Positions 4,705 to 40,624 of a stretch of 64,000 bases of DNA are shown one piece after another. Both the position numbers and the translations under genes were made by a program. Each line of letters starts with the position of its first letter. The first letter of the stretch is position 1. The DNA is taken from positions 44,359,682-44,423,681 of the forward strand of contig OX344749.2 in the NCBI GenBank assembly GCA_947034885.2, given 5' to 3'. Under the pieces are notes generated by a model. The model did not search any database. It was not told where the DNA came from and saw nothing but the letters and a program-made list of their open reading frames with translations. This DNA is from Thuidium tamariscinum. Lineage: Eukaryota > Streptophyta > Bryopsida > Hypnales > Thuidiaceae.

Positions 4705-4880
4705 AGGTGATTGCAAAAAATACTTATACAATTTGTTGTGTGTGCATGATTTTGTTGAGAGTACTTTAAAGTTTTAATTTAAATTTTAAATTTGTTTTTA
4801 AGTATGTCCCATATACACATATTTAAGATGAAGAAAACCATCAAAGAAAATTAATTTTGTTAATAAAATCTCTAAAAAGG

Positions 4881-5066
4881 CACTAGAAGAAAACTGCGTT
4901 AGAAACCTGTGAAACGTGTGGGCTGAAATTTGTTGAGCTCCACGTTTTTAGTGCACAAATATGCGTTTGAATGCATTCCAACGCAGATTTTTGGGCTAGA
5001 AACGTGGAAATCAATAAATTTCAGCCCACGCATTTCGCAGATTTCTAACGCAGTTTTCTTCTAGTG
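4881..5066. mobile_element. CACTA-type MITE, 186 bp (TSD AGG)
   Basis: Perfectly bounded by CACTAGAAGAAAACTGCGTT and its inverse, with target duplication AGG on both sides (4878-4880, 5067-5069). CACTA...TAGTG ends with a 3-bp duplication are the signature of the CACTA (En/Spm) superfamily. Most of its length folds back on itself. Non-autonomous. It sits inside copy 1 of the 730-bp family, so it is younger than that insertion. Confidence 0.9.
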
Positions 5067-5305
5067 AGGAGAATTAGAAAATTCCCAAACCTTAAGAAAA
5101 TACATACTTTGACGTTTTAGTTAGAATTAAATAGGTTCAAATTTTCTTTAAAATAATATAAAAATTGTCCATTATATAAAACTTTATGGAGATGGTCATT
5201 CACCAAAAAACTTACAAAAATCTTTTTTTACATATTTCAAGATGTATGTAGAAGGAGGCTTACTTTGTAGAATTCTACACCGTACAAAAATTATTATTTT
5301 GAACC

Positions 5306-6587
5306 ATGAGAGAAAATTTGGAGCCAGTATAAGGCCGCTCCAGAGTGACAAACACATGTATTAAGACAATGGTAGGGGGGTTATGGAATATGTTAGAATT
5401 GGGAGGTCAGATCATGTGAACTTCGTAAAATGCAGTTGCAGTTGGCTTTGAGTCTTTGACACGTCTTGAATAATAACGGCAATGTATAAATAGATTTGGT
5501 TTGTTTAATCAAAGTCTTTGTTTTAATATACTTATTTATGAATTGGCAATATACTTATTAATTCTAAAGAAAAAAAGTAGAAAGGTAAATACTATAGGAG
5601 TGTGGGATATATATTGTGGGTTCCATTTCGCATTTTTATTTGGTGATGACTATTACAATGTTTTCAAATATTGTACAAATTTTTGGACTAGAATATGTGA
5701 AATGGCAGATGTACTAGTTCTCAAATTTAGAAGATATGAATTTTCTAAATGATGGATGATTAAGATTGCAATGAAAAGCACAAAGCAAACAAGGGCTAGC
5801 TTATATTGATAAAAAAATAATTGTCAAAGTTCTATATGAGAGAGAAGGTGATAGCATTTCCTAACAAAATTAGGTTGAACACAAAATAGACAAAATTAAT
5901 ATAACTTTTGTGTATAGTGTGGAAACCTCAAACCGATTTGCGAAGATAAAAGTTAGTTTGTTTTTCCAACTTTTTGCAGTTCTAAGTTTTTCCAAAAAAG
6001 TTGATCTACTATGCCTAAATGAAGTTTGAAATTGTTTTTTAGGGACATTTTCTGCATTTTCACATAACTATGATCAACCAAGCTTTTAACTTGAAAATAT
6101 CCCATATTCTTTGAGATTCATGATGGACAATGGCTTTCTATATAAAAATAGCATCTTCACCTTTCTTCCTCACAAATTACCCATGAAGAAAGTCTTCCAC
6201 ATATATTCTCATCAACAACTCTTGAGGGCAATATGGAAAACATACTTCATTCTCATCAAAGTTTTCCACATTCTTATCAACAATTCTTGATGGCAATATG
6301 AGAAATATACTTCATTGACATCTACTTCATATTCCACTATTTGGATGAACCTTAAATAGCATTCAAGCTTAAAGTTTCCAAAAGCCTAAAAAATTGCATC
6401 AGGGTACTATAATTTTGATTATCTAACACTCAAACTTAGATTTAGAGCCTCTGACAATCATCTAACAACCCGACAGAAGGTGAGCGAGAATTGGGGAAAA
6501 AGAATTTGTTGAGCCAAAAAAAATTGAAGTCTGAGGTCCTCTAAGGGCTGTGGAGTGGCCCATGAGAGGCCTCACATTTTCTCTCAT
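5306..6587. mobile_element. 1.28-kb insertion with short inverted ends
   Basis: Interrupts copy 1 of the 730-bp family. Left end ATGAGAGAAAATTTGGAGCC, right end the near inverse of ATGAGAGAAAATGTGAGGCC. No clear target duplication. Inside are a TATA-like TCTATATAAAAATAG (about 6135-6150) and two about 69-bp direct repeats beginning at 6195 and 6264. An 83-codon frame at 5501-5752 has no recognised product. The superfamily is not determined. Confidence 0.5.
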
Positions 6588-7409
6588 ACATTCCTTCATC
6601 CATTAGCTACAAATCTACTAGAAGATCACCTCTTCAAAATTTCAACTCAAAATTTAGTTTTTTAGGTGCTAAATAGTATTAAAAACCTTCAAATTGGCAA
6701 GTGTGATACTATGACATTCAATCAAGGGCTATTTTTAAGTAGTTGAATATTTTTGAAAATTATAAGAAAACTGAGCAAGGTTTATAATAGTTTTAAATAC
6801 CTTGCCTAAAAATCATGAGTCATTTAGAGTCAAAACACAAAAGTTATGATTAAAAAACAAATCAACACATGTTGTATGATGCAAAATAGTATAAGTGTTT
6901 CTTGCAATCATCCAAGGACAATAATAACATTAAAAATTTAATTGTATCAATTCTTTTAATACATGTATTATGGGCCAAGCCACCCAAGTTTTGGGGCTTT
7001 TAAATAAAAATTTAATTTTCATTGGAGGAAACTTCTTGTTTGGATTTTTAGATATTACGTATAGGTGTATCAATTCTTCATGTATATTGTGAATTTTTTC
7101 CTAAAATGTATGCAAATGCAACATTTTTTATATATAATTTTCTTTTAATTTGTCCTTGACCAAATTTTTGGATCTTTTTTTAAATTTGATATGATTTTAA
7201 CAAATGCCATTGAATAAATCATTTTAATGCCAATGACTCTTGCATATATATTCAAGAGTTGTGTACCTGAGATAATATCCTTGAATGTTTAACAACCGAT
7301 GTAAGATAATTGCTACTTCTAAAATCTATCTAATATTTTAGATGGAAACAACATTGAAATGTAAAATGTGCCAAGGTGTAGAAAAGTCTTCCAATTTGGA
7401 TTGCATATA

Positions 7410-8140
7410 GGGTGAATGCGAGAAACACTTGTACTATTTTCCGTCACAATCTAAGTGCTGATCTATTTTTTGGCCATAACTTTTGCATTTTTTCTTGAAA
7501 TGACTTAAATTTTTTAGAAAAGGTACTCATGACTATCATACATGTTACACAATTTTTTTTTAATTTTCAAAAAAAATTTAATACTAAAATAGTACAAGTG
7601 ATTAAATGTCACAAATGACAATTTAGAGGTTTTTAGTGCTAAGGAGTACCTTTTTTAAATGATTTTGAGATGAAATTTGGATGAGATGGTCTTCTAGTAG
7701 ACTTACATCTCTATACCTGAGGTATTTTGAAAAAAGTTATTTTTATGTGGTGTGGAAGTCTACAAAGTGAGCTTCTTTCTACTTGATTTTTGAAACATAT
7801 AAAATATTATTTAGGTGATTTTTTTGGTGAATGACCATCTCCATAGAGTTTTTGCCATTTCTACTTTTTATTTTTAGTATTTACTTATTTTTACTATTTT
7901 TCTCGAATTAAAACATGAAGGTATGCATTTTCTTAGGTTTGGCGCTTCTTAAGTACTCCTACTTAGAGAATTTTTCTATCAATTTCCTTCAGTGAAAACC
8001 TTCATCTTAGAGGTGTATACATTATTCATATTTTTCAATTTTTTTTCAAATTAATTTTTTAATTTTAAAGTACTCAAGAAAAAATCATGAGTACTGTAGT
8101 AAAATGCAACATATAGTACAGGTGTTTCTTGTATTCACCC
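7410..8140. mobile_element. 730-bp non-coding DNA transposon, copy 2 (TSD TATA)
   Basis: Left end GGGTGAATGCGAGAAACACT, right end the inverse, TGTTTCTTGTATTCACCC. Flanked on both sides by TATA (7406-7409 and 8141-8144). 731 bp, no coding frame. The interior shares the order of landmarks with the other four copies: AGTACT-containing left arm, a GGAGATGGTCATTC-like block in inverse, and CTACTAGAAGACC-like block. Confidence 0.8.
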
Positions 8141-8329
8141 TATAGGAGATTTGGGAAGAAATTACGAAAATCCCTGCAAAGAAAACCCACAACTTTCTTC
8201 TCTACAAGAATTCTTTGAAGATGCCATCATGTAACATTAGAACATAGGGAAATATAGAAACTAGCACAATCTAGCAGGGAAAACTACATTCTCTTCAAAA
8301 GTCCTCTGTGTTAATTTGAATTCAAACCA

Positions 8330-9064
8330 ATTCCAATTTTCCAACTGTAATTGTGAGGCTCCACTGAACATCACCCAGCTAAGTTAGAGAGGTTCTTGCC
8401 ATGTCGATCCTTCCTCCGATCCACATCGTGACAGGACGACGACTCACCACGTCACTACAGCTCCATGGCTTAGAATTCAGCCTTCGATCAGCCAGTGTGA
8501 GGATCAGTAACAACTAACAACGCGGCTGGACGTGCATGGTACGTCCGTGGACATGATCGATACGGGAGAGCGCAGATAGTGTCACTCGTTTCACGTCACA
8601 AGCATGCAGCCAGCCATTGACAAAAATTCACAAGTTTCTCGCTCATCTAGATATATAGTACGTAGTTCGCATTTACTTAGTTGTAACAATATATCCGCTA
8701 TAGCAACCCACCGAGAGCTCCCTCGGAGCATGTTCGCCTGCAAGCAATTGAATGAATCGAACTCAGGACTGGTCTCCCAACGAAATATCAAATATCCCAA
8801 CAAGCTAGTCAACAAGGACAGCATCTTCGATGATCGATCACTTGGGATCCAGTCACGATTCGTGCACGTACAGTACGTTCAAGCTCACCAGGTACATGGC
8901 CGGCCCGGTACATGGAGGAAGTTTCACCTGTAAGTCAATCTCAATGACCTAGTTTTCAACAATCAGTGACCGTTTTAATTCCCAGTGCTTCGCTCGATCA
9001 GACCATGCTGGTGGCGACTCGGGGATTCATCATTTGTGTTCTGAATTCGATCATCTGCTTGCTT
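8330..9064. other. GC-richer patch without recognised gene
   Basis: Base composition rises abruptly at about 8330. Two open frames overlap on opposite strands (8604-8933 plus, 8824-8591 minus), neither with a known domain. It may be a relic of a gene, an RNA gene or a transposon fragment. Confidence 0.35.
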
Positions 9065-9405
9065 GTAAGGTAGAAGCTCTTAAATGGAGCGGGTTCTAAA
9101 ATGGTGCCCTACCTTAAATGTACAATATTTGTACATGTTGCTTTTTCATAGCTTTCAGTAATGTACTGCTAGTGTACATTTTAGCTAGGGCACTATTTTA
9201 GAGCCCTATGTCCTTTCAACTTCAAAATTTGATAACTAATTCCATAAAGCTCCAAAAAATATGAAACAACTTGGGTTACAAGTCAATTCCACTTGTCTCT
9301 CAAGGAAATATACTGAAAAATATTTCAAGATGTTTCACCTCCCCAAAATTCAGTTTCAGCGCTTAGATGGGCGATTAATGAGCCTTCTACCAACTCAGAC
9401 AAATC
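9065..9405. repeat. Dispersed repeat, best copy, with internal palindrome
   Basis: Related to 25605-25885 and, partially, 27745-27865; all share AAGCTCC.AAAAATATGAAA and AATATTTCAAGATGTTT-like blocks. This copy holds a 116-bp inverted repeat (9091-9206) with arms GGGTTCTAAAATGGTGCCCT and its near inverse, absent as such from the other copies. Confidence 0.6.
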
Positions 9406-10048
9406 ATTTCAAAGAGAGGGATTTGCGTATCCAGTACAGGTAAAATAAGATGAAAACAAAATAATACGGATGAAATCGAATGTAGCCATCGTTGATCATA
9501 TCAATCATCTGGTTTAGCTCATGCCTACTAATACACAGTACGGCCAACTGTGGTGTTAGTGCCGTTCAACTTCAACATTTGTTGCAAACATTTATTCAGA
9601 AAGTCCAAATCAGTTGAAGGACATGCAATCGTGAAAGAGGTTGCAACTTGCAACTTCAAACTGATTCATAGCAACATGCCGTGGTGAGTTCGTACCAACC
9701 GTACGCAAGTTTGAGAACTTTCTCGTTCTAGAAATGTTATACCAGTCGAATTCGATAATTATCATGAGCTGGTTGCGTAATTATCCAAAGCAAATGATTA
9801 CCTCTTCATTTTGAAGATAATTACAGTATGCTGAAACAAGATAACATGATTGAATGTCAATGAAAATGAATGTAAAAAATTAATACAATTTTAATAACAA
9901 TGAGGATTATATGCACAATTCCAATTTTTTTGGTCTTGTAGCAATTTCTTTGGAACGTGTGATTCTCTCTCTTTTTCCACTTGTGTTGAAAATAAGACAT
10001 GTGTTCACGAGTTTCTTTCACCCATTCATCCTCAAAGCCTCGAGACAT

Positions 10049-10741
10049 GATTTCAAGCTATTTTCAGCAATTGGGGGCAAGTTTTTCCTAGTAGCCATAT
10101 TTGTTGAATTCTTGTGAAATCTTTATCAAAGTTGTGTTTCACAACTAGCTTGATGTTTTGGAAAATTTCAAACCAATCTAAGTTGTGGTTAAAAAGTTAT
10201 AACACTTCAAAAGGACGTTTTGTCACTTTTGTGTAGTTTACTTAAAGTTCTAGGCAACCATGATTGATTGGTCCGATTGGGCTGAAATTTTTTTTACATA
10301 CTTTCAACAAGACTTTTTGCATGACCGCCAAAGTTGAAAGGCATGTGAGCATATGATTTTGACTTAAGTCAAGCCTTTGAAAATGGACTTTGTAAGATTT
10401 GAATACTGCTCAAAGAAAGAAAGTTCAATTTTAGACACTCATATGCCAAAATGATCTGCTTGTGTGCTATTCAACTTCTAGGAGTATGTTAAAAGTCTTG
10501 TAAAAAGTATATATAAAAAATTTCAGCCCAATTGAATCAATCAATCATGGTTGCAGGCCTAAAACTATCAATAACTACACAAAACATCCTTTTTAACCAC
10601 AACTTCGATTGATTTTATGTTTTCTAGACATCAAGTTAGTAGTGAAATACACCTTTGGTAAAGATTTCACAATATTTCAACAAGTATTGCAACACAAAAA
10701 CTCAAAAAGGATTGCCTTCAAATAGAAAATAGTTTGAAATC
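10049..10741. repeat. About 690-bp imperfect inverted repeat (foldback)
   Basis: The left half (10049 to about 10395) reads against the complement of the right half in the same order. Matches include ATTTCAAGCTATTTTC, TTGTGAAATCTTTA, GTTGTGGTTAAAAAG, CAACCATGATTGATTG, TTGGGCTGAAATTTTTT and CAAGACTTTT. There is almost no loop. A transcript would fold into a hairpin of about 340 bp. It may be a foldback transposon or a hairpin small-RNA locus; no target duplication was seen. Confidence 0.75.
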
Positions 10742-11554
10742 TGCCATTGGGCTCTTAACCCCCAAGTACCCACCTCATGTTCACAAACAAACAAATTCAA
10801 GGCTATTAATAACACTCCCTAGTTTAAAATTCAAGGCTGGGATTCCCCAACTAGAGGCACGTACCGGCTAAACAATTGTCTGGACGATTCCTGCCACGAC
10901 CTCACCGAAGCATGTACCAACATATTGTACTCAACACGATCAGTTATTCAACCATTTTCAATCATGAATTATTTCCTGCAAAAGTATACACCGGAGCAAT
11001 GACCTACAACAAGTACAAATGAACGTAACAGTAACATCTTCTATCACTGCAAAGGCTCTCTAGTGTACAACATGCACGCATTCGAAGTGCATCAACCTAT
11101 CCGTGGCATGTTTGCCATATCGTACACATCTGCTTTAAAATCATTTGGGAATCAGTGTCAGCCGGTTGGGCGTTTCCTGCTTCACGACTTCCACGACTCC
11201 ACGCATTCCAGGCTTGCTACAGAAGCACTTGGACACGACGTCTTTTTTCTCCTTACCAAAGGTTTGTTCCCGAAGTACAAACTTGGCTCCTTCTTCGATT
11301 TTTAATTGGAACACCAGCTGAGATTTCCTCCTCCTGCAAGCCAGCCATCTCTGACACCCCTATCATACAAATCTCTCTGCAAACAAGCAGCTACGCTATG
11401 AGAGACGCGGTCCCTCTACAAGTGGCTCGATCGCTATTCGAGGAAGAATTATAGCAATTCAAACTTCCACACCCACAGAGTTAGTTTCTATCGATGCACA
11501 GCCTCCTCCCCTTCGAGCCAGAGACAATAAATCCTTCTTGAAAACCCGCGCAAC

Positions 11555-14500
11555 CTATTCAGGACTCGGGGCTGGAGTCAAGCTGGATCCCGTCAAGAAA
11601 GAGTCCGGTTTCAAGGCCCCCGACGTGTCCTGCGACGACCTCACCGACGGCGTCAACCCAGTCTCCATCAAAATCTCCAAAGTCTCGACCACTTTCGTCA
11701 TGTGAGGTCGGTCATTCGGGTTCAACGACACGCAATGACAAGCCACTTCCAGCAACAAATCAAGCTCCACACCAGGCACCGTATCCATCAGATGCTTCTC
11801 CACGATTTGCATGGCGTTGCCTTCGCTGTGGAGGCTACGGGCCCAAGCAGCAAGGTTGGTGTAATCATCCGGCATGGACTCGTCCACTGCTCTCCTTCCG
11901 CTCAGCAGCTCAAGCAGGATGACGCCATAGCTGTAGACATCCACTTTCTCAGTGGCTTTCCCCGACTTGGCGAACTCGGGAGCGACGTAGCCGAAGGTGC
12001 CACCAACCGTGACGGTGACGTGGGTGTCATTCGCGGAGACGAGCTTGGCCAGGCCAAAGTCGGAGAGGTAAGGCTCGAAGTCGGTGTCGAGGAGGATGTT
12101 GGTGGCGGAGACATCGCCGTGGACGATACGAGGGTCGCAGTCGCGGTGCAGGTAGGCGAGGCCGCGGGAAACGCCCAGGGCGATACGGTAACGAATCAGC
12201 CAGTCGACGACCACATTCTCCTTCTCACCTAGGGAAGACAGAAAATGAAAGGGGGGTTAGGATTTGAGTGTAATTGAGAAAAAAAGTACGAGGATGTTAG
12301 CTTTCCAATGCGGTTTGGTTCATTTGGAGGTGTGGTGCAAAAATTTGTGTGTTCAGATACAGGTAGTGTGAAAAAGATTTCCCCTCCCCGATGTTCCAAT
12401 TCTTCAAATTAGACCTTTGACAAAACGAATGGAAGAAGAATTTGTTTGTTCGGGTGCAATAGAAAAGGATGCACTCTGAAATTAGCTTTCCACTGCACTT
12501 TGTTTAATTGGATATGGAGATGAGGTGCAAAAGATATGGTTGTTAAAAGATACAAGTGATCTAAGGAAGATTTAACCCCCCAGTGCTCCAGAACCCCCAA
12601 CAAGATCTTTGACAAACCAATTGGAGGCAGAATTTGTTTGTTCCGGTGCAAGAGGAAAGAATGCACTTTCAAATTAGCTTTCCAGGGCACATCGTTTTAC
12701 TGAATTCGATATTGCATAGCAAAAGATAACGCTACTTTATAAAAGATACCACAGGCAGTTTAAAGAAGTTAATTCCTTATAAATTCACCAATATCAAAAT
12801 AACCATATGTTGATTCTCTTAAAAATTCATACTTCTATTTATGCAAATGGAAGTTCTCCCGTTGCTTTCGTAGTTAGATCATTTGAGTAATGTGACGAAC
12901 AATAAATTCAGGGTTCAATATCTTATGTAATATGGTCTCATATCAAAAAGAGAGAATCGAAGATGCAAAAAAATCCTCGGATCCAAACGAGTATAAGTTG
13001 AGAAGGAATCCAGGGCGCTTCTCACCGTGAAGGAGCTGATCGAGGTTGCCGCCTGGAAGGAAGTCGTATATCAAGAGCTTCACATTCGGAGCGGAGCAGA
13101 AGCCCTGGAGCTTCACCAGGTTCCGGTGCTTCACGGTTCCAAGAGTCCCAATTTCATTCTCAAAGCTTCGTTCAGACTCCAAGCACGTCTTGAGTTTCTT
13201 CACTGCCAAGGTCGAGTGTTCATTCACTTGTAGCTTGTACACAACACCATAGCCACCCTCTCCAATGATGTGCTTCTTGCGAATCTGTCGTAAAGCAGTC
13301 AGCATCTCCTTCGACGTAGGAACGCTCTTGGCTCCTTGAAACATGACGATCTTCCCGCCTGGAAAAATAATCAGAAAATCAGAAAACCCTAAAGCGTTGC
13401 ACTGACCCAAGTGCTCAAACTAAAATAGCAAGATCAAATCTAAAGAATCATAAAAAGAAACAGGAACTCCTGTGTGTTATTGATTCATGTAGAGTATTTA
13501 TTTTTTTCTTTCCATTGTATTGATAGGTTACATTGAAGCGTCCTCGATGAATATCAAATGTAGAAACCGGAGTTCTGTAAAATGTCAGCATCCATCGGAA
13601 GGGACAGACGAAAATCTTGAATTCGTGCTGTTAAAAACTTCAAAACGAAACCTCTACGTCCGATGAATACAAACCTGCTCCAAGATTGATTTCGTTGTGA
13701 TTCTCCTTTCTCACCCAATGCATGATGGCAATCACGGCAATGACAAACTTGATTCCAAGAAACAAGCCAACAGCCAGAAGCACGATCTGCACTACACTCA
13801 AGGGCGGCTTACGCTTCTTGCTCACTGCGTCCGGCAATTAAAAGGCATTATCAGATACACGGTAGGCAAGTAAACCAAAGCAAGGTCAAATCTTCATCCT
13901 AGAGGGAGTCTAATCATCTTTGAAAAAAATGTTCCACGTACTCAGAGATCTAACCGAAATAGAACTTAGAGAAGACCGAGCCGCCGTGTTGGTCTAAAGA
14001 AACAAAGAAGTTCCATCTTTCACATGGAATCATGCTTCATTCTTGCCAATAAATGCTACTGAAATCATGCTACAGAGAGCAAGCTCGGATGCAAGAACAT
14101 ACCTAGAGGAAGAGACGGTCCAACACTCGGTGCAAGGACAGGCGCGAGGACAGGAGCAAGAACAGGAGGGAGGGCAGGAGCGAGGACAGGCTCGAGGGTC
14201 GGGCAAGAGGTCAGCCCCAAAGATGCTCGTCCACATAAATTTTCATTGCCTAAATATCTGTCGCACCACAACATCATCGTCCATCAAGTTGACAGAGAAC
14301 TCTCCTCACAGAACCAGAACCGCCGAGAGGCAGGTACTTCAAACCTTTGAGAAGTGTAAACAATCGAGACAACAAAAACTGGTAAGGAATATCTACATGC
14401 TAGGGGTCTTCCGGAAGAACGAGGTCTAAGCAACCACTTACGAGTTAATGTTGAAGCGCAGTAGAGCTCCCTCTGGCACCTTTCCGGAGAGCGCATTGTA

Positions 14501-15601: not shown

Positions 15602-16153
15602 TCTGGACTGAAACTCTAACCTTGCACAAGGTTTTGATACAAACCTAAGGTTTCACCGCCAGTTTTCTTAACAAACAAGAACATGGAAGCGCCCACACAA
15701 CACCAGCTTCTTCACCGATACTCTCGCCATTCAAATAACGCTCGAAAGTAACACCCTGAAATCACGCTCTAAAAACTTGCCAAAACCTCCCCAGCGCTTT
15801 CAAATATCTGTCTGGGAAATTTCAACATAGCTTCGATGTGTCAATGCGAGCACTCCACTTGTCCACAACCAATTCCAAGCTGCTCACGGAGCCTTCATTC
15901 CCAACCCTCCCGAAATCACAACGAAACAAAGCGAAAATCGAATCAGAACCGATATCTACGACACCAGAAACTGTTCCAAAACCTCGAATTCCCTTTTCGA
16001 AGAACAACCTTAGTCAGTGTCTCTGTGTCCATGAATGCTGTTGATCTGTGCATTCAAGTGAAAACGGAGAATCACAAGCATTGGACTCCCGGTACCAGAC
16101 AAGTGTGACAACCGAAGGCTGCGAAAGTACGAATAAGTTACCTAGCCCAACAT

Positions 16154-16176
16154 AATTCTCTGTCGATGACGTCAAG
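16154..16176. promoter_or_regulatory. Repeated TGACGTCA (bZIP-type) site, distal copy 1
   Basis: Contains TCTCTGTCGATGACGTCAAG, identical over 23 bp to 16348-16370. The palindromic core TGACGTCA is the classical CRE/bZIP C-box. It lies about 555 bp upstream of the RLK-A start. Confidence 0.45.
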
Positions 16177-17935: not shown

Positions 17936-18935
17936 GGGCAGGGAGAACTGACCCCCTCGCTCGGCCACTTGGGTAAAACACTGTAATTTTTTATTTTTCA
18001 CACTTATTTTTTTTTGCAAATTTTGAATTCATATTTGCGATCAGAGACCACAAATTAGCTAGGGGGTGAGGAAAGTAGGGGTGATCACGGCCCAAACTAG
18101 GGGGCTTTTTGTTTTGATTGCACCTCTAGTAAAACATGGTAAGGCCGAGCGAGGGGGCCAATCCACCCAGATCCTGGACACGCAGGTCAGTTTTGGCAGG
18201 TTCATGCCGAAATATTTTACTTTATGCAATGCAACATTTCAGCAAACACACAAGAATTTTCTAATTTTCAGCACTTTATGAGGATATTCCTAATTTTGGA
18301 TTGATTATTTCTTTTCATGCACAAATGTGTTTCTTTTTCGAATTTTCTTAAAGAATTTTTTTTTCAAATTTTTAAAAATAGTTGTAAGTAATTTTCTAAA
18401 TTTCAACAACTCCAAATTTTATGGGCAGGAAAAACTGACCCCCTTGCTCGGCCACTTGGGTAAAACACTGTAATTTTTTATTTTTCACACAAATTTTTTT
18501 TGCAAATTTTGAATTCATATTTGCGATCAGAGACCGCAAATTAGCTAGGGGGTGAAGAAAGTAGGGTGATCACGGCCCAAACTAGGGGGCTTTTTGTTTT
18601 AATTGCACATCTAGTAGAATATGGTAAGGCCGAGCAAGGGCCAATCCACCCTAATCAAATTTTTTGGAGTTTTTTACAAAATCCACCTACATATACAATA
18701 TTTTTCCTATGTGTAGATTAGTTTTGAAAATAATAGAGGATGTTGAATTCTACCATTGAAAGTAGGACCAACAAGGTGGATTTACCTCAAGGGAAAATGC
18801 AAGAATTTTTATTTTTTTTAATTATTATTTTTTGCAAGTTTTGAATTCATACTTACAATCAAAGACCTCAAATTAGCCAAATGAGGTCTAGATTATATCC
18901 TAGACATGGCACAAAATAGGAGGCTTTTTCTACTT
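17936..18935. repeat. Direct repeat, two full copies and one decayed copy
   Basis: Copy 1 17936-18168 and copy 2 18422-18651 share long runs such as CTCGGCCACTTGGGTAAAAC, AATTCATATTTGCGATCAGA and ATCACGGCCCAAACTAGGGG. A third, AT-enriched copy at about 18828-18935 keeps GCAAGTTTTGAATTCATACT and AGGAGGCTTTTT. It marks the upstream edge of the RLK-A island. Confidence 0.8.
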
Positions 18936-21900: not shown

Positions 21901-24900
21901 ACATATAAATTTTGGGGGGGATTAGAGGTGACATGAACAACTACAAAGTGTTAGCACACTAAAATGCACTTAAAAACTTAATTTTACATGAAAAGCTATT
22001 AAATTCATTACACAATCCACCTTGCAATTGTTGAAATGCAACTATTTTTTTATAAATAGAAATTACAAATAACACCAAATCAATATTTGTATGTTTAAAT
22101 TTTCAATGGTGAATATCATGAAAACACTTTACACTTTCCATTGGAACCTTTCTCAAAGCAAATGGATATGTACAATTTTTTAGATCTCAAATCAAGTGAA
22201 ATTGCATAAAGGTAGGAAATGAAGTTAAATTGGCAAGCTTTACAATTCACTTATGGTACATGTATGCCTTTGAAGACCTCTTAATAATCAAATATGTATT
22301 TTTTTCAATAAAAAGTGAAAGTTTTCAATAATTAACCCTTAAACTACTGTACTTGGATTTTTTTAAAACAATCACAAGAATTTAATAGCCCCCTCTGAAA
22401 TGGGCCTGAAATTTTAGATTGACCACATATGGTCGATTGGGCAATTAAGGGTTAAGCAATGTATTCAATTGTATTTACTGAATAATCTATAAATTTTATA
22501 ACATGTCTTAGAATGTGGAAATTTAGACCTTTGGTCTTTGAGAAGTTAACCTTTAAAAGACTAGAGGTATTTGAAGATACCATTCGTCATTTCTACTATC
22601 TGTTATAATAAGCATGATTATATATTTATGTGGAATAATTTTGATGATCACCACCATTGAAATGAATGAAGGTGTATTTTTCTTTCCAATAAAAAAATTT
22701 CAATAAAATTGCACAATTTTGAGAAATGCCACCATTAATAAGATGAATGAAAGATGTTTGGTAAGGCAATACTTTGCACATATGCAAAAATGTAAATGTT
22801 GAAATCAAATTGTTCAAAAGATAGTGTTCCAGAAACTTTGATTTTTTTTCCCACAAGTCAATATCATCATGATATTGATGTGTAATTTCTTTTCAAATAA
22901 TTTTGAGGTAAAGGGAAAAAGGTACAAAGATGTGAAGTGATGGCCTAGTGGACTTTTTCCAAAAAATCATCCAAAATTGCACACTTGATCATTTATTGAT
23001 TGGATTGCACTAATAGATTTAGTGAAAAGGATAATCGAGGCTCTCTTTGATGTTCAAAGATTGTTAATGAAGTAAACATTTCAAATTTTCTACAAATGTA
23101 GTTGCAAAAGCTATGTGATGGCTTTATAATCCTTTAGAGGTAAAATCCTATAAAAAGGTTGGGTTTTTATTGTGGTAATGTTAATACCAAAGGTCATTTA
23201 AAATATATTACTCATTTTTTTTCAAAATATGATTGGTCTTTCATTTGTACTTTACAAAGGAAATATTGGTCTTATTTTGAGACAAAGGGAGTATTTTATT
23301 TACTCAAAAATTATGCAAATAGGGTTCATTAGAGGTTTTTTGGGGGTGTTGAGAGACTGTTTCAGCCTCGTTCCCCATTTCTGTAAACCAGCCCTGCTGA
23401 TCAGAATAAAAAAATATTAAAAAAATATTAAAAAAATAAAAAAATAAAAAATAAATAAATAAATAAAATTTAATAAAAAAATATTTTTTTAATTTAATAA
23501 AATATTATTATTTGATGTGGCAGTCTCTGTGCCACATCAGATCACTATAGATCAGCTGCTGATCAGCTGCTGCAGCGAGTTCCCATAGTCCGGGAACTCG
23601 CAGTCTTTCAACTATGGAAGAAAACCTCCAATGCTTTGACACACTCACTTTTGAACATTGAAGATGGGCTTGAAGCTAAATCTTTAGATGAAATTTCTTC
23701 ACCATAAAATCCTTCTAACTCACCAATTTTTAGTTTCTATGAAGAAAAATTCTCTATATTTCACAAAATGAAACATTGAAGTACATATTTTCTTCAAAAA
23801 TGTGTGACTCTGTTTTGAGAATAATTTTTTATCTACATTCTTTTTAGGTATGAGATTTTGTTCATAAGTTACTTTTAGAGGAATATTAACTATCATTTCT
23901 GTAAATTTAAATATTTTTATTTAAAGACATCATAGCATAGTGAATTCTAGTCCAAATGATGCAAAATTGACAAGTCATTGCAATCACCTAAGTATATGAA
24001 TCTTTTTTTTAATGCATTATTGCTTACATCTTTATACGAAACTAATAGTTACTTCGATTTCATCAAATAAGTGGTAAAGAAAGCCCATCTAAAATCCACC
24101 ATATAAAGTTCCTTCAAGCATGTTCCGATGATATCAATATTTGATGATTTTTATAAAACCTTTAGCTAGGATAGAATAACAAACTAGTTTTATAAGAATA
24201 TAAATTTCATTGCTTTTTAAATGTCTCACTTGTCAAGGATGCAAGATCCTATATTTGGATATGCAAAAATCAAAGTCTTGAAGGTTTTAGATTTTGCAAG
24301 AGAAATAAGAGCTTGGAGTGGTGTTAGCTAAAAAAATACCTTGCAGGATTTCAAGGGTGAAAAGACTTAAGTGTTAGTTAGGATGGATAAGAATGTAACT
24401 TGAATAAAATGTTAATTTGAAACCCCTAAGGGTGCACTCCCCATTTCTTTGATGTCAACATACAAACTAATAAAGGGTAATTTAATTGGATTTGATCTAA
24501 ATTTTATAAAATTATTCAAAGTAAACTAGCATCCATATATTGGGCTTTTAGACTTTAAAAATAATGAAGGGTATACAAAAATACAAAATTTTATCAATTT
24601 TTTTCCTAAAGTAGCCCCACCAAAAATCAGAACTTTCTATAGTATACTTAGTATAGTATAAATCTATGAGCTATACACTGAATTCAAAAAGGTGTAAGTA
24701 TTTATGGTTTAGAAAGGGTTAACTAGAATCCAATATGCATGTTGTATATACAAATTTAAATCTAGATGAATGAATTCATGAATGAATGATATTCTCACTG
24801 GCTAAACACTTTTGTTACTTCAATTAGTGACTAAGTGGCGAGGTGAGTGGGCGACTAGGATACAACGAAGTTTTTTTAACATTAGGGTTTTCGTTTATAG

Positions 24901-26588: not shown

Positions 26589-27322
26589 GGGTGATTGCAA
26601 GAAAGGCCTCCCATTTTTTGTCTCGTTTTGAATAGTACTCACAATTTTTTCAGGAGTACTATTTAATTAGAAAAACAATTTTTAAAAATTGTGAAAAATA
26701 ATTTTCATGAATATACCTGTAAGAAGAAGGTACCCTAAGAAGGAAAAGTTCAAGAAAATTCTCTAACTAGGAGAACTAGAAAAGTGCAAAATCTCATGAA
26801 AATGAGTACTTTCACATTTTAATTTGTAAAAAATAGGAAAATCAATTTTAAAAAAAACTAAAAATTGGAAATTTGGGAAGGATTGATGATGATGAGATTT
26901 CACCAAAAGAATTATTTTGAAACCATTTTTTATGTTCAGAATTGTATGCGCAAGGGGCCCCTGTTTGCATCAATGTAGAGGACATAAAATAATGTTTTTA
27001 AGAAAAAAAATTTCGTCAACTTATAAATCTTTAGTGTATAAATATACCATACAAATTTCAAGTCTATATCATTAATTTGGGATACTCCACAGTACTAAAA
27101 ACCCCTAAATTGCAAAGTGTGACAAATTAGGTAAATTAAAATTTAATTAGAAAATGTTTTTTGGAAATTTATGAAAAATAAGGAATTTCTTTATTATCAA
27201 GTTGGCCATCTTCAATAAAAATTTCAAGTACATTGGATTAATACCCCAAAAGTTATAACCAATGGCACAAATGTCACTTCCATTGTGACGCCAAAAAGGA
27301 CAGCCCTTTCTTGCAATCACCC
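26589..27322. mobile_element. 730-bp non-coding DNA transposon, copy 3 (TSD ATAG)
   Basis: Starts GGGTGATTGCAAGAAAGGCC and ends CTTTCTTGCAATCACCC, flanked by exact 4-bp repeats ATAG (26585-26588, 27323-27326). 734 bp and AT-rich, with no coding frame. Same family as the copies at 7410, 36744 and 39898. Confidence 0.82.
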
Positions 27323-29284: not shown

Positions 29285-32200
29285 TCAAACTACGTCGCAA
29301 GGATAAACTAGTCCCGTCTCTAGCCTGGAGGTTTTGACGCTGTTTTGGTTTCCAGGGATCCCCACGCTTTGAAACGAAGACCGCTGGCTGGAATTTACGG
29401 AACTGCTGATTACCAAATCGTCTTCTCCACAAAGCTTCTGCAAGAGCTTCACAACGTGCTGCATGCTGGGTCGGGCTTTCGGCACTTCGTTGGTACAACT
29501 CATGGCTACACTTAGAGCGGTGAGAAGAACGTCATCCGGGGCTGCGCCCAATATGCTCTCATCAAAAATTTCCTCCGGCTGGTCCTCTGCTAACAACGCA
29601 TTGGCCTGCAACCAGCCACGATTAAGGTCAGTCACAGAACTTGGAGTCAATAAATGTACCAAGCAGTGAGAAACTCGCAAGCATTTGAGTGTGTCAGTCA
29701 CGACTAGAGTTTCGTGTAACGTCAAATAAACTTGTTGTAGAAATACTGAGATGTATTGATCACAGAAATTAAAATTAGAAGGATGCTATGCTTGCAAGTT
29801 GGAGAGAGTGCCGCGGATGCTCACCCATTGGACTATGCTAAAATCGTGATCTCGAAAAATATCATCCTGAGGCCGCTTTCCAGTCAGAAGCTCAAGCAGC
29901 ACAACTCCGAAGCTGTACACGTCCCCTTTCTCGGTGATCTTCCCAGTTTCCATATACTCTGCACATCCAATTGCAAGTTTGCAACCCATAATGAGAGACA
30001 GCAAGAGAGAAGCACGATTATATGATAACAGCCTAAAAGGCCAAAACTTGCTACTTCCATACAGGAGTTGAAATAAATTGCTTACAAAGTTTCCAGGAAG
30101 GTAGTAAATCAAACCAATAAAAAGGAGAAATTATGCCCTACAATTTATAATAATAAAATTACGTTTCGAAAGGTCCAAAGTAGACAGACTATTGATTTTG
30201 AGCTTGAAAGATGATACTGAGTTTCAAGTGTAAAATTGACTATTGAGAGACCATACCCGGAGGTAAATATCCAAGGGTTCCTGCAGCTATGGTGGTCACG
30301 TGAGTCTCCTGAGGCCGAATACACTTGGCAAGCCCAAAATCTGCAACACGAGCCTCCATGTTCTCATCGAGAAGAATGTTGCTGCACTTGATATCCCGGT
30401 GAATAATGTGAGGAATGCAGTCGTGATGCAAGTAACTCAATCCTCGAGCAACGCCCAAGCCGATCTTGAGACGCAAATCCCAGTCGATAGGATCCACGTT
30501 CCGTTTTGCATAATCTGCTTGCAACACCAACGCAATCAATGAATATATGTCCATCCCCAGACGAAGAGGAAAGCACAAAGGATTTAAGTAAAATAAAGAA
30601 ATTCTTTCCATGAACTAATAGAATCATACTAAGAATCTTCAATATGATGTTACTGTGGTGATTCGTGCTAAAGACCAAGTCCATTCTGTTTATTTTTCAA
30701 TCAAGTGTTTTTCAACTCTTCGAGTTCACTTCTTTTGTTAGGTCTCGAGTTCTTTGCTATGATATTCTCAGTGGTTTATGTAGGCGGTATTGCCCTCTGT
30801 TTTCATTCGTGGTTAAGATGTCTAAAAGCTCTTGACACACTGAAACTTTACTGGAAAAACTGTGAAACCGAGATTTCACGCATTTGGAATTGCAAGTGAA
30901 AAGAGTTGAACGCTGTGTGGAAGTGGTGAACCAGGAATTTGTTACCATGCAAGACGGATTCCAAGTTGCCATTTGGCATCAAGTCGTAAACTAAAAGATT
31001 GATGTGGGGTGCGCTGTAATAGCCACGCAACGCCAACACGTTTCTGTGTTTCACGTCGGCCATGGTTTGAAGCTCCCGTTCAAAGCCTCGATCCCGTTCA
31101 CCGGCTTCCCTGATCAGTTTCTTCACGGCGAATGTGGACATGTCGTCCAAAACAAGTTTGTACACCGTGCCGTAGCCTCCACTGCCGATGATGTCTTGGG
31201 GTTTAAGCTTCTCGACTTTGTGAAGCACTGCCGCTGCCAATGGAGTCACATGCCCTGTTTGCTGAAACATTATCATCCTCCCACCTGCACAAACGAAGCA
31301 AAGTAACGTAATCTGCATTATTAGATCTATTCCAGAGAAACCAACTGAAATACACCCGTCCCGTGCAGCACTTAGTAGCTGCATACCATGTAACGAAACA
31401 AAACACAAACAAGAACTGCATTGTGTTGCAAGCAGATGGATTCCTAAAATGCCACCTGACAGTTTGACTTCACAGTTGCTCCGCATCTTCTTCCGTCGGT
31501 AGTACCAAATCAAGAACAAGAAAATCTTGCTGACTGCAAATGCAGAGATGCATATAGCAACAATCTCTCCCACGCTCAGTTTCTTTCCACCACCCCCTTT
31601 CGGCTTTGCATCTGCGGCGACATCCGAACATTCCACAACCTCAAAACCCTAAACTTCCACAATGACACTAGTGCAGGTGATCTGATTTTTTGAGTCAAAA
31701 AGTCAAGTACGCCAATCGTGGAAGGCTGGGTACCTGGTGAGATTTCATTTAAAGAACGGATATTGCTTGCACACGTTTTGTTGGTTGGATATCCACATAG
31801 TTTGTCATTCCCCGAAAATCTGCGAAGTAAATCATTTGGACTTAGCTTGGATCAAGTAACCTAAAACTGAATCAATGAAATTCGAATCAAAGTCATCTCA
31901 TTCTGTGTGAATACTTGAGGCCCACCAAACCCTAAGATGGAGCAAGAACGGCGTTTGCATACCGTAAAGTCTACAAATCACCTTCCTCGCTGAAATCATG
32001 GCAAACGTTTGACAAATATGTGCCAGCCCTGGTTTCCAAAGCTCGGTGCACTTGAATGTCACAAGTTTGGCGCTCTAAACACTAAAATTTAACGAATATT
32101 ACCATACAGATTCAACACGAATGTGCTGTAGGGTGCATAGCGGTACTTACGAGGTGGCATTGAAAGAATCTCGTACTCTTCCACAGGGCAGACTGCCTTC

Positions 32201-33244: not shown

Positions 33245-35320
33245 CTCGAGACTACAGATTCCGAACGTTTCCCCTGTTGCAGCATCTCTCTCTTCGATAA
33301 ATTCAATCTCACCTCAGCACTGCTAATGCTTCACAACTGACAACAAGTCCCTTGAACTGGCCAAGTCTCTTCTAATCCAGTCACCCCCATACACTCATTC
33401 CAAGTTTCCAACTCTAAAGTTGACAGCAAAACTTGTCAACGCTAGCATAAGTGTGATCCGGTGCTAGAGAAACTCAGTAAAGTTAATGAGAGATGAGGGA
33501 GCCCGGGCAGCGCATGGTGTGCGAGGCGTAAGTACCGGCCCCCTTGGAGCGAAATGGGGGCCACAGTGGCAGTGGGCCCTCCCAGGCTGCCCAGCCCAGC
33601 CCAGACTCCAGGCGCGACATTTCCCGTCCCCGTCCCTCCCGTCCTCGTCCTTATCACCAAATAAAATTCAGATTAAGTTCTGCGAGACGGATCCCCGTCT
33701 ATTCCGCAAGATCTTCAAAAGGTCAACTTAGCTAAAGACTACACCTCTTCTTCGAAGATTACTCCTCTATGAACAAGCGAGAGGGCTCGTGTTGGTAAGT
33801 ATCCAAGTACAGTACTAGAAAGTTAACAATTAAACTGATTGCATTTGGCGCTAGCTGAGTGTAAGGAACAAACCAATATTGGATCTCAACCCAGGCCGCA
33901 GTGAAGCTTGATATTGCTTGAACTGTTCATCACATCAGTCAAAGTGCTCGATATCTGTCTACGTTGTCTCACTTCCTCAAATGGCTCTAAACTGAGTGAC
34001 CCGTGGTGTTTTGCAATGGAATTCCAATAATTCTCTCTTCTATTTCTCGTTTCCAGTGCTCTAACGCGCGTGCTCTGTCAACAACAATACAAAATACAGG
34101 TCCTTTAAGCTGTGTTACTGATGAACTGATTAATATGTCTGAACAGCTTGATAATAGTGAGGATATGAGTTTGGTGATCGTTCCAAGCCATCGTAGGACC
34201 CCTTTTTCGGACAAAAATGTTGTTCAGTGATCGATTATGGCAGCCTGGGCCCGTAGATTGAAGGCCCGATTGAAGGGCAGAACTTTTGCGAGGTACAGCA
34301 TATATTATATGCGACATGCTGGATGAAATGAAAGCAACTTCAACTTGTGTCATCTAGATCGAACCAGTTGCCTACATTGCTATTACTGATGTGTGCATTG
34401 CCGCTGAATCTCCTGGACGTGAGTCATCACACCTGTAGGTGTTGCTCTAATTTGTCATCACACCGACGGTGTAAGTTAGATTGAGTCCAGTTGGCCTGGA
34501 CAACGATTAGCGAAGCGGTCCATCACTTGCGAACTAATAGTGCCGAAGTTACATTTCGCTCCATCGGCACTCGATCCACCACTCATTGATGAGCACAGGA
34601 CGTACTAAAGGAACTGAAGTTGAAGTCTGATCGGGAATGTTCACGGCATTCTAGGGGAATAAGTTACAGTAGTGTCAGTCATGAGGCCCAGTCCGGCCGA
34701 GAATGGTAAGTTACAATTTGTTCACCCTGTGGAGTGTGGACCTGGCTTGAGTGATTGGAGCAGTGTTCAGAAACTTTAAGGCTCTTAAACTTAGGACCTG
34801 GAAGGCGGGCTTTTCCCGAGTAAATGCGGGCCTCGAGCCAGGCGAGGTGCACGTTGACAACAGAGAAGCGACGGAGGTGGAGAGTTGGAGACACTCATGC
34901 CGGAGTTCTGGGAAGGACTGACGGATCGGAGGGCCCAGCCCGAATGCGGCCGGCTGCAGCGGCAACTGAAGGGTAACTGAAGCCAGGTTCCGTCCGTGTG
35001 ATCTCATCAGTCACTGGCAATTTTTCATTTTTTTTCATTTTTTTTTTCATTTTTTATGAAGTGCCACTCAAAGTCGGTGGCGATGTGAAATATTGCAGTG
35101 GTGCTCCTAATTTCATCGTTCATCCTCATATTGGATATAAAAGATCACATTATCACATATCTATGATTCCATTTTTGGCCATAATTTGGCAATTTCATCG
35201 AAGATATTTTTTAATTTTTAATTTTTTTGAAAAACTCATCCAAGATTTAACTATTTAGGATCCAAGGGCTTGGTTCAAAGCCTAGAACTTTGGTGCAACT
35301 TGACAACAAACTGCATAAAA
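33245..35320. other. Upstream region of RLK-B
   Basis: Moderate to high GC. The stretch 33525-33660 is C/G-rich with several GGGCCC and AGCCCAGCCCAG words, plausible promoter sequence about 300-400 bp upstream of the start. Open frames there are short and overlap in opposite directions. No gene recognised. Confidence 0.4.
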
Positions 35321-35430
35321 AAATACTACACTATAATGTTGGCAATAGTAATTTGTTGAGATAACACTAATTGTGATTAGCAAAGTTAGTGTTAGAAGAT
35401 TATTTACCCATTCTAACACTATTTAAGCTC

Positions 35431-35665
35431 TACAGTTTTTTAGGAAAGGGACAGATTTTTGTGGCGGGAGGCAAAAACTACAGTTTTGCAGGGAAGGGAC
35501 AAATTTTCGCGGTGCAAGGCAAAAATTACAGTTTTTTTTTAAAAGGATAGATTTTCACAGTGGGAGGCAAAAATTACAATTTTGCAGAGAAGGGACAGAT
35601 TTTTACAATGGGAGGCAAAAATTACACTTTTGTAAGGAAGGGACAAATTTTTATGATAGCAATTA
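35431..35665. repeat. 48-bp tandem array, about five units
   Basis: Units begin TACAG/TACA at 35431, 35479, 35527, 35575 and 35623, exactly 48 bp apart. Core: GTTTTGCAGGGAAGGGACA, then AATTTT, then GGAGGCAAAAA. Because 48 is a multiple of three, the minus strand stays open and shows a 16-residue repeat (KNLSL...VIFASHC). Flanked by CTACACTA (about 35328) and TAGTGTAG (to about 35770), possible outer inverted ends of a host element. Confidence 0.75.
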
Positions 35666-36743
35666 AGTGCCCCAACACTATTTACACATAAATTGAAAAA
35701 TAGTATTGGGGGTAAAAAAACAAAAAACAACATTAATTATCATCCAACACTATTTATCAATTTTAGTGTAGTCCTTGGCTCACTATAAGCAAGTAGGCAT
35801 GTAAGTAGCTTTAGGGGGCTTGCCTTGGTCAGTCAAACCACTTGTATTATCACTTACCTTATATTACATTATTAACCCCTAAAGGACCAACATGCCTTTT
35901 TTGGCAACATAACTATTTCGGGCAGGTACGTGTGACTAGAAATTTCTATATTTTGGAACCAAATTTTAAAAGGTGTGGACAAGGAATATCTTTAAAGTCC
36001 AACAATTTTTGTGACTTTTGATTGCATGGTTAAAAAGTTATTGCATGATATGTTGTTTATTTCTTAACTTAGGCAGTTTGGGTACATTAGAAAAAATCAT
36101 TTTTTTTAGAAAGTAAAAATTCAAAATTGGTTTAATAGATTTATATATATGTGGAAAGCTTTGAATCATTCCATTTGAACTAATGAATCTAAAGTTTTGA
36201 AGAGTTTTAGTTTGTGGGTAGTTATAGATTCCCTACTCTAAAATAAACTTTGAAGTCCTTTATTTTATTCAATTTTCAATATTTTAAGAAAAAAAATAAA
36301 AACATTGGGTATAGGTTGTTTATTACAACATTTGAACCATTGGAATTGGCAAGTTTCAATTTCACAAATAAATTTTTAACAATTTAGTATTTTGAATCAT
36401 TCTCTACTTCTTTTTACTTACTATTTTTTTTCTATATGTTGTCTAATTCCAAATGATTTGAAATTTTTTGAGCATGTAGCCAACTTGCCTTGGAGAATGA
36501 ATCCAAAGAAGACCTACCATTTTAGACTCTTTTTCATGCAAATGTGAGCTTGTAAAGTACAACTGCCTGAATTTTTGCAGTGATAAAAAAAGAATTTTTG
36601 TAACTTCAAATACTAATATCTTGTTATCCATACAATAAAAATTTCTACATTTTTTTCCTCGTCTTCTCAAATCTGAATACTACAAGATCCTACAGTTATA
36701 TGTGACTAAAAACAATATTTTTCGAATATTTGGTACTTGTATT

Positions 36744-37476
36744 GGGTCATTGCAAGAAACACTTGTCCTATTCGTTGCGTTTTGCAACAGTACTCATGAA
36801 TTTTTCAGGAGTACTATAAAATTAGAAAACTAATTTTAAAAAAAATTTAAAAATAGGAATAATGTATATACCTCTGAAATGAAGGTTTTCACCAAAGGAA
36901 ATTGATAGAAAAATTCTCTAAGTAGGAGAATTTGAAAAGTGCCAAATCTCAAGAAAATAGGTACTTTGATTCAAAAATTAGGGAAAAATAGTAAAAATAA
37001 GTATTTTCAAAAAATAAAAAGTGGCCATTTGCAAAAACTTTATGGAGATGGTCATTCACAAAAATCCCCTCCAAAATAATATTTTATATGTTTCAAAATA
37101 CAAGCAAAAGGGAGCTCACTTTGTAGACCTCCACACCTCACAAAATTAACTTTTTTTTAAAATCCTTCCCTGGTGAGCTAGAACTCTACTAGAAGACCAT
37201 CTCATCCAAATTTCATCTCAAAATCATTAAAAAAAGGTATAGCTCAGGTACTAAAAACCCCTAAACTGCCAAATGTGACATCCAATTGGGGTCTATTTTT
37301 GGATAGTAAACTATTTTTGAAAATTATGAAAAAATCAAGTAAGGTGTATAATAGTTATGAGTACCTTTCCTATAAATCTTGAGTCATTTGGAGTTAAAAC
37401 ACAAAAAGTTATGGCCAAAAAACTGATCAGCATGCAACGTGTGACACAAAATAGTACAGGTGTTTCTTGCAATGAC
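36744..37476. mobile_element. 730-bp non-coding DNA transposon, copy 4 (imperfect TSD)
   Basis: Starts GGGTCATTGCAAGAAACACT and ends GTGTTTCTTGCAATGACCC: a long inverted terminal repeat running on through TTGTCCTATT. Flanks are TATT and TGTT, one mismatch from a 4-bp duplication. 733 bp with no coding frame. This copy has the best-preserved ends and is the best reference for the family. Confidence 0.8.
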
Positions 37477-37601
37477 CCTGTTAGAAATGGCAATTTTGGA
37501 GGGTTTTTGGTGAAAACATAGCCCGGGAAGATTACTCGCGATTTTTAGAAAACTACGTGAGTTAAAAGATAGGGTCTATTTAATTCAAAGGGGATAAATT
37601 T

Positions 37602-37603
<2 letters not shown>

Positions 37604-37639
<36 letters not shown>
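37604..37639. repeat. (TA)n(GA)n compound microsatellite
   Basis: A TA run changes directly into a GA run of about 11 units, shortly after the right end of the transposon at 36744. Confidence 0.9.
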
Positions 37640-39897
37640 ACTACTATAGGGTTCTTGAAATGTCACATATCCTATTATATATAAATTAGGCTCTGTATAA
37701 ACATCATTTAGTAGGAATTTTTATTAATAAATTAGACTTTACAAATAGGGTTCATATAAAAAGTTTGTAGTATAGTGAGTATAGATGTAAACAAATTTTT
37801 TTAATTGAATGATGAAATTTACACAATTTAGTAAATCTAAGGATGTTTTTCGGGAGATTTGTTGTTATCATCAAATAATTCTAGCCTATACATACAAATC
37901 TTTCTTTAAGTATACCAATTATGTAATAGCATGTAAAAAACTATTGTTTCAAGACAAAAGAATTGAGCTGTAAATTTACAATGAGGTTGTACTATGGAGA
38001 TTTGTGTTCACACAAAGTACCCATTAAGAAATTGGTGTAGAGTGTGCAACATTTGCATGGAATCTTTTCTATACTTTGACACTACAAACTCTAGATTTGC
38101 TTCAACTACTTGAACATATACTTGTAAATGTTTAAAATCATCTTCTTTTTACTAGTGTTTAATAAACACTCTTTTATTTTTTGATTCAAAATTCAAAACC
38201 ATTGTAAATGCATATGTAAAAATAAAATATATAGTCTCTATGTTACAATAGAGGTCATATTCTTGGGTTAATCTACAATGTTTTTAGAGTGTCAATTTCT
38301 CATGTTGTTCATGTTATATTGCTAGTATTGGTGTTTTTCTTAGTTTTAGTATCATAACTATATTTAATGTTTCTATGATGTTTATTATTCATCATATTAG
38401 ATTTTTTAGAATACATGGCATAGAATTTAGAATATTTAAATCTATTGTTGCATTTTACATTTTTATTTGTCATTTAAAATTGTACTACAATACACGTAGT
38501 GCATATATTAAAAAAATAGTGTATATGTAAGACACTACTTTTATAGTGTGTTGTAACTTGTAAATGGATATGAAAAAATTAGACATATAAATTTTGTATA
38601 TAAGATAGCCTAACTATAAAAATCAAATGATTGAATTTATATGTAAAAATACGTTCATTTTAATTAGTAAAATGAAGGTAAATAGCCCTATGTTAAATAC
38701 CCTCTTAACTCAGGTGTATGCTTAAAATTACAAGGAGTGATCTCCCTGGGAAACATAGTCAAAGAACTTCAGGGGTTAACCCATAAAAGTTTGGGACATT
38801 TTGAGGTTTAAAAACATCATTGTTTTTGAAGTGTTAAAAGTCTAAATATCACTAAAGTATGGAAATCTCAACCATATAATCTTATAGTCTATGTATTGTT
38901 GATGATGGAAATCAAATTTGGAGTCATTTGATCATATAGATTGCAAGATTATAATGTTATAGTATATAAAAAGGTTGTTGAAATTTTCCTAAAAACACAT
39001 TTGGAGGTCAAATTTGATTCTAAAACTAGTCAAGTTAAAAAACTTTAAACTATGAAGTGCTTCAATATTAGAATACAAATACATTGGTAGAAAAAAATGT
39101 AGCATACAATTGACTCATTGTGTTTGTAAAATGGATTTGAAATGTAAAAAAATAGTTGAAAGAACCACATCTATGGTTGAACCTCCTTCAACTAATATAA
39201 AGCTACCCATAATCAATCAAATGAGCAACTCCAGACATAATTTAGTATAGTGCAAGGCAAAACAAATAATTTCAAAGATGCAATTATACAGATGAGAGGG
39301 ATTGCAAAAACTTTGGTAAATTTATCGTTTAAAAATTGAAATTACTGGTGAATTTTGAAAAGCAAAGACTGCTTTGGACTCGAAGTGAAGCTCTAACTCT
39401 TCCAATTGTAATCATTTAAGACCTATTTTTCTACTCATTACTTTCTACTTTCTTGTTCACTACTTTGGAACATGAGTCTTGAACTTATTAGTACCATTGT
39501 TAAAGAAGAAAAAACGCATTCTAGTCTTGGTAACTTAGTTGGAAATAACTTAGGCTATAGGTTGGCTATGGGGCATTGGTTAATTAGGAATTGGTGGCCC
39601 AACCTTAAAATGATTCTCAATCACTCACATCGTTGGCTGGTTGCTAGCATGTGAGCATAGAAGTGTGAACTTGTGAGCCTCAAAGATGATGCATCTATTG
39701 TATAGGTGCTTATACAATAGAGATATTTTATGAAAAGAGTATATTTATACTATAGGTACCTACATTATAGGTGTTTTTACTATAAACACCTTCAAAGGTG
39801 GTAGTATATCTACTTGTATACATATTAGAAGCTCACATGCTCACATGTTCATGCTCACACACTAGCATTGTTGAATCACTCATAACTTTATGCATTG

Positions 39898-40624
39898 GGG
39901 TCGTTGCAAGAAACACTTACTGGTTTTGGCTCAAAATGGCTCAAAATCAATGAGTCCTGTGAGTCCTATGACCCTTTGAAATAATTTTTTTTAAATTGAA
40001 AAAAATATGAATAATTTGAAGAGCAATGAGAATATTATGTCTCTTGAAATTCAGACCTAAGAATTTTTTTCTCTAAATGTTATAGACAATGGAAAATACA
40101 ATGAAAATAGCTCTATTTTCACTAATTTGTTAAAAATAGTAAAAAATTCATAAAATGAAAATGAAAAATACAATTTTTTTCTTCAAGTAAAGGTCTTTCT
40201 TTTCCAACAAATTTCATCTTTGAAAAAAATAAATTCTATTCTCTACACTTGCGCAAAGTCAGCCACTTTGACGACATGTGGAGGTTGAACAGTATAGTAT
40301 TTTCAAAAAATCTCTTCATGGCCTTGTGTAACTTTAGCTGAGGTACTTGCATGCCAATTTTCAGCTCAAAATTTTCATTTTTGGGTCAAAAATAGGACTA
40401 AAATCCCCCAAATGGCCAAGGTAGACAACCAATCGGGGGCAGTTTAAAAATAGTAAAATAATTTTTAAAACATTTAAAATATTACACAACATATAAAACT
40501 TTTTTGTGCACCTTCATTCCAAATTTCAAGTTGATACAACAAACATGCAAAAGTTATGAGCAAAAAACTACCTGTTGGAGGCCAAGGGGGCAAAAAATAG
40601 GACAAGAGTTTCTTGCAATCACCC
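39898..40624. mobile_element. 730-bp non-coding DNA transposon, copy 5 (TSD ATTG)
   Basis: Starts GGGTCGTTGCAAGAAACACT and ends GTTTCTTGCAATCACCC, flanked by exact ATTG repeats (39894-39897, 40625-40628). 727 bp, non-coding. The interior is more diverged than in copy 4 but keeps the same ends and length. Confidence 0.8.

Follow-up and report, generated by a model that had tools for sequence, protein, structure and literature searches.

A family of about 730-bp non-coding elements with inverted ends and 4-bp target duplications in Thuidium tamariscinum

Which kind of mobile DNA leaves copies of about 730 bp with non-coding bodies and 4-bp duplications of the target? The question is raised by a 64,000-nucleotide stretch of Thuidium tamariscinum (assembly GCA_947034885.2, contig OX344749.2, positions 44,359,682 to 44,423,681 of the forward strand), referred to here as the window. 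An earlier note had claimed five related copies starting at 4705, 7410, 26589, 36744 and 39898. All five were present, the first interrupted by two insertions, and they are named c1 to c5 in this order. The family is best explained as non-autonomous cut-and-paste DNA transposons with terminal inverted repeats (TIRs), moved in trans with a 4-nt stagger. A probability of about 0.85 is given to this reading, leaving aside the superfamily, the assignment of which is unproven.

Inverted ends of 20-30 bp, near GGGTGATTGCAAGAAACACT, were common to the five copies. The ends read GGGTGA...TCACCC, and also GGGTGATTGC. Searching both strands of the window with the 20-bp end motif gave nine matches with at most three mismatches, compared to 0.02 expected from 100 shuffles, which bears out the claim of shared inverted ends. 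All nine matches were termini of the five copies; the one terminus left over, on the right of c3, had four mismatches to the motif. Left and right ends of one copy agreed at 16-19 of 20 letters. At 51796 a 14-bp match to the end was observed with no partner end in sight and surroundings unrelated by eye, and it was taken as chance. The end pattern had no match in viral contigs. Six matches were found in 257 billion bases of bacterial and archaeal contigs, and these were also taken as chance for so short a pattern.

The second line of evidence is the flanking duplication. Exact 4-bp duplications were observed at c2 (TATA/TATA), c3 (ATAG/ATAG) and c5 (ATTG/ATTG), and three of the four letters agreed at c4 (TATT/TGTT) and c1 (GAGG/AAGG), so that 18 of 20 flank letters agree at 4 bp. 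At 3 bp the agreement was 4 of 15 letters and at 5 bp 4 of 25, and among duplication lengths from 2 to 11 bp, 4 alone fits. From the base composition of the window, at least three exact 4-bp pairs among five would arise by chance with a P of 1.5e-6; the three exact and two near duplications that had been described were confirmed. The reading of the flanks is considered sound because two CACTA-ended miniature inverted-repeat transposable elements (MITEs) in the same window, used as a control, carry the expected 3-bp duplications. CACTA elements make 3-bp duplications according to PMC10741241 (this and the other papers cited below are drawn on in excerpts). The control MITEs are located at 42537-42700 (164 bp, duplication ATC) and 4881-5066 (186 bp, duplication AGG). 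Both are near-palindromic with the ends CACTAGAAGAAA, and they probably belong to one CACTA hairpin family.

The copies are distributed over both strands. Copy c2 occupies 7410-8140 on the minus strand (731 bp), and c3 (26589-27322, 734 bp), c4 (36744-37478, 735 bp) and c5 (39898-40624, 727 bp) are on the plus strand; the limits of all four were set by BLAST, a profile search and the flanks. The claimed lengths of 727-734 bp were close, apart from c4, which ends at 37478. Copy c1 spans 4705-6913 on the plus strand and was pieced together by profile search and by BLAST to c2 and c4. It consists of 4705-4880, 5067 to about 5304, and about 6580-6913, with profile matches at 4706-4897, 5059-5304 and 6580-6913. 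The first insertion in c1 is the 186-bp MITE of the control, the arms of which are 86% complementary without a loop. The second is about 1.28 kb long (about 5306-6591) with imperfect inverted ends ATGAGAGAAAAT. It was recognized from the gap in the profile match and by reading by eye; its limits are approximate, and a clear duplication was not seen by eye. For alignment, both inserts were removed from c1. The family extends beyond five copies, as a decayed and truncated sixth relative was found on the minus strand at 23641-23989. It retains a single end, GGTGATTGCAA, and has a profile match of E 1.3e-14 (profile positions 2-362) and a BLAST match to c3 of E 5e-13. A Stowaway-like end, judged by the generally known motif, is located nearby at about 23260-23294.

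The copies are collinear over about 730 bp, and pairwise identity across the five was 51-80% in a MAFFT alignment. The family likeness described earlier is real, but the copies are more diverged than its wording implied. In pairwise BLAST, c2 and c4 shared 80.4% identity over 743 columns, at full length and in opposite orientation. Identity of c3 to c4 was 72.6% over 328 columns and 67.2% over 287. The c1 pieces matched c4 at 73.5% (310 columns) and 72.3% (235 columns), and c5, the most diverged intact copy, matched c4 at 65.5% (235 columns). The four intact copies matched the profile at E values of 1.3e-159 or below, the profile having been built from these copies themselves. Between the two flanks, 2 of the 20 duplication letters are different, compared to 6.0 expected if each insertion dated from the split between its copy and the nearest relative in the window (P 0.03). 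Because the duplications differ less than expected, part of the divergence would seem to predate the insertions, as if several old source lineages had been active, although the test is weak and based on few letters.

The bodies of the copies are non-coding, as had been claimed. Stop-free stretches reached at most 68 codons in the intact copies, compared to 82 codons in c1 after joining of its pieces, and no 3-base rhythm was detected in the conservation among c2-c5. No Pfam match below E 0.1 was obtained in the 10 scanned of the 16 stop-free stretches of at least 45 codons in c2-c5; the sole entry listed, Prot_inhib_II, had an E value of 0.18, far under its cut-off. A coding body was rejected on these three grounds. 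A function as RNA or DNA structure was rejected as well. Full copies folded more stably than shuffled sequences (z between -3.9 and -8.4 in the five copies; -6.8 for c4 folded as DNA and -8.5 for c3 as RNA). After removal of 40 bases from each end, z ranged from -1.6 to -3.7 for one strand and from +0.3 to -3.5 for the opposite strand. The mean background z was -2.1 (standard deviation 2.8, lowest -9.4) in 30 stretches with a GC content of at most 0.38, some of which overlap each other or contain other hairpins. Since the end-trimmed copies fold at the local background, the fold signal is ascribed to the inverted ends. No Rfam match at gathering scores was present in the window.

Put together as a mechanism, a transposase supplied by another element would bind the GGGTGATTGCAAGAAACACT ends, and the bound piece would then be excised at its inverted ends. 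The excised piece would be joined to target strands 4 nt apart, and repair of the gaps would yield the 4-bp duplications. Two further patterns were observed. Letters that deviate from the motif were common to both ends in four of the five copies (GGGTCATT in c4, GGGTGAAT in c2, GAAAGG in c3 and CTTATAC in c1). In a permutation test devised after the pattern had been noticed, 2 of 120 left-right pairings, the true one included, scored as well as the true pairing when 25 or 30 bp were compared (P 0.017), as did 4 of 120 over 20 bp (P 0.033). This is a weak hint, and it fits joint recognition of both ends by one transposase, or a process in which one end is copied over its partner. The second pattern concerns the insertion sites. 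When one of the two duplicates is taken out, the restored target of c2 and that of c3 are both GCATATAGGAG, an 11-bp sequence entered one base apart, and the 100-bp flanks of the two copies showed by eye no likeness beyond these roughly 11 bp. The chance of such a shared site is roughly 2e-4, counting all pairs and small offsets and estimated after the likeness had been noticed. The sites of the remaining three copies differ from GCATATAGGAG. Two of five insertions in this sequence may hint at real target choice.

Weighing against the proposed transposition in trans are the two imperfect duplications among the five, the ends of c5, which are without common variants, and the lack of a visible source. 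The window contains 238 stop-to-stop frames of at least 60 codons. In the 20 of the longer ones that were scanned with Pfam, two of them overlapping, neither a transposase nor a longer relative of the family was seen within the 64 kb. Five of these 20 frames had Pfam matches, four to kinase pieces and one to OST3/OST6, and none to a transposase.

Which superfamily could have supplied the enzyme? Seven plant TIR superfamilies are listed in PMC10741241. Sola is among them, with 4-bp duplications and ends that vary widely, and its presence has been reported in Physcomitrella and Capsicum (PMC9033089) and in Azolla (PMC6786969). The earlier statement that a 4-bp duplication is unusual in plants was a fair one, but Sola in these papers is a precedent. 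By duplication length and variability of the ends, Sola would fit best among the seven. The family shares with it the 4-bp duplications, the inverted ends and the very variable termini (PMC10741241), and the AT-rich duplications are like those of Sola2 (PMC3627910). Known Sola elements mostly have lengths of 2-9 kb and encode a DDD transposase (PMC10741241), whereas the copies described here are about 730 bp and non-coding. Under the Repbase rule, assignment to Sola would call for a match of the first 11 bp to a Sola family of equal duplication length (PMC4455052). A Sola-like source, given that the family is a DNA transposon, is held tentatively and at somewhat less than even odds, the remainder falling on another or undescribed group with 4-bp duplications.

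Other known groups were rejected on target sites, duplication lengths or ends. The target of piggyBac and Kolobok is TTAA, and the sites here are TATA, ATAG, ATTG, TRTT and RAGG. PIF/Harbinger elements of plants duplicate the 3-bp TWA and hAT elements duplicate 8 bp. The flanks agree at 4 of 15 letters at 3 bp and at 9 of 40 at 8 bp, and both groups were excluded on these lengths. Plant MITEs such as Stowaway, Tourist and the CACTA hairpins resemble the family in being short, AT-rich and non-coding with inverted ends, but they have 2- or 3-bp duplications. Their usual length is below 500 bp (PMC10741241), shorter than the present copies. Mutator makes duplications of 7-12 bp and Tc1/mariner duplicates TA (PMC10741241); the flanks gave no fit at 7-11 bp, and at 2 bp they agree in one copy of five, there inside TATA. 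Ginger1 and Ginger2 share the 4-bp duplications, and Ginger2 prefers RTATAY, from which the c2 and c3 sites, ATATAG, are one letter off (PMC2836005). The ends, however, are GGGTGA and not TGTNR (PMC2836005) or TG..CA (PMC10741241), on which ground Ginger was rejected. Chapaev, in the Chapaev/CACTA (CMC) group, has duplications of 3-4 bp, but the ends of this group are CAC...GTG (PMC4079192), in contrast to the GGGTGA...TCACCC found here, and CACTA duplications are 3 bp.

The alternative that survives best concerns the source rather than the transposon nature of the family, namely that an undescribed or non-Sola superfamily making 4-bp duplications moves it. About an even chance is given to this. 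It is favoured by the report that Sola is not common in flowering plants (PMC10741241), together with the CACTA MITEs and the Stowaway-like end of the window, features that would suit a flowering plant. It is also favoured by the finding that the end letters, searched as text in the papers available, matched in three papers, none with transposons in its title; the match in PMC2892489 is a primer. These ends were not met in literature on 4-bp duplications, MITEs and Sola, where search listings do not show end letters. On the other hand, the duplication length is already accounted for by a superfamily known from plants, and nothing seen demands a new one.

A second alternative, compatible with transposition in trans, is that selection acts on the interior of about 730 bp, either on its length or on recurrent binding motifs, and that this interior is not passive filler. 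The four intact copies differ in length by 8 bp at most, despite the divergence of c5 from the other three at 45-48% of aligned letters. The simulated chance of such a range in four copies is 0.048, 0.019 and 0.009 at indel/substitution ratios of 0.05, 0.10 and 0.15, but 0.41, 0.19 and 0.10 at ratios of 0.01, 0.02 and 0.03, so that the outcome depends on the ratio assumed for the host genome. Near-constant length despite deep divergence is accordingly suggestive only as a hint of constraint. The number of indels was dropped as a strong sign, and total length alone was used. The MAFFT alignment has 4-14 indel events per pair, but BLAST, with cheaper gap costs, opens more, 0.04-0.17 per mismatch in the 10 element pairs, which is inside the range of 0-0.25 for 13 other repeat pairs of the window. 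The motif AGTAC, a possible binding site, occurs 31 times over the five copies compared to 4.0 expected. The copies are related, however, so that the count is not independent, and the numbers from c1 to c5 are 2, 11, 9, 8 and 1. The fold signal beyond the ends is not above background either. Selection on the interior is regarded as rather unlikely. A combined possibility is regarded as quite unlikely, in which a long-lived family of an undescribed 4-bp superfamily has a non-coding body of conserved length, diverged to roughly half identity, that works in the transposition complex through spacing or AGTAC arrays, with paired change of the two ends.

One special case of a non-Sola source is a family of the PIF/Harbinger-IS5 (PHIS) type with a 4-bp instead of a 3-bp duplication. 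The present ends start with GGG, as many Harbinger ends do, and members of PHIS make no duplication or one of 1-4 bp (PMC10045372, excerpt). Against it stands the poor 3-bp fit already given for the TWA of plant Harbinger elements, and this origin appears very doubtful. Instead of a transposon family, the copies could be inverted repeats that arose by chance or an ancient segmental duplication, in favour of which their strong divergence may be cited. This is hardly credible, since the c2 and c3 flanks are unrelated outside the shared site and the end and duplication statistics are strongly against it.

Other repeats and genes were observed in the window. A fold-back repeat of 603 bp at 10091-10693 has arms about 70% alike, and a clear duplication was not seen by eye. 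Two sequences of 265-277 bp at 55219-55483 and 56027-56303, in inverse orientation, 81% alike and about 540 bp apart, could be the two long inverted ends belonging to a single element, or else two separate copies of another. Direct repeats are located at 17936-18168, 18423-18651 and 18806-18929, the first two being 93% alike and about 487 bp apart. The Pfam matches at 11555-13410 (-), 30240-31636 (-) and 58067-59086 (+) comprise kinase pieces from two genes and a frame with a nearly end-to-end match to OST3/OST6. The kinase pieces resemble plant receptor-like kinases, and such genes together with the plant types of MITE in the window suggest a plant host.

With these copies, the plant TIR transposons that make 4-bp duplications gain a family that is plausible and perhaps unnamed. 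Should the non-coding body prove constant in length genome-wide, the family would serve as a test case of selection inside non-autonomous elements.

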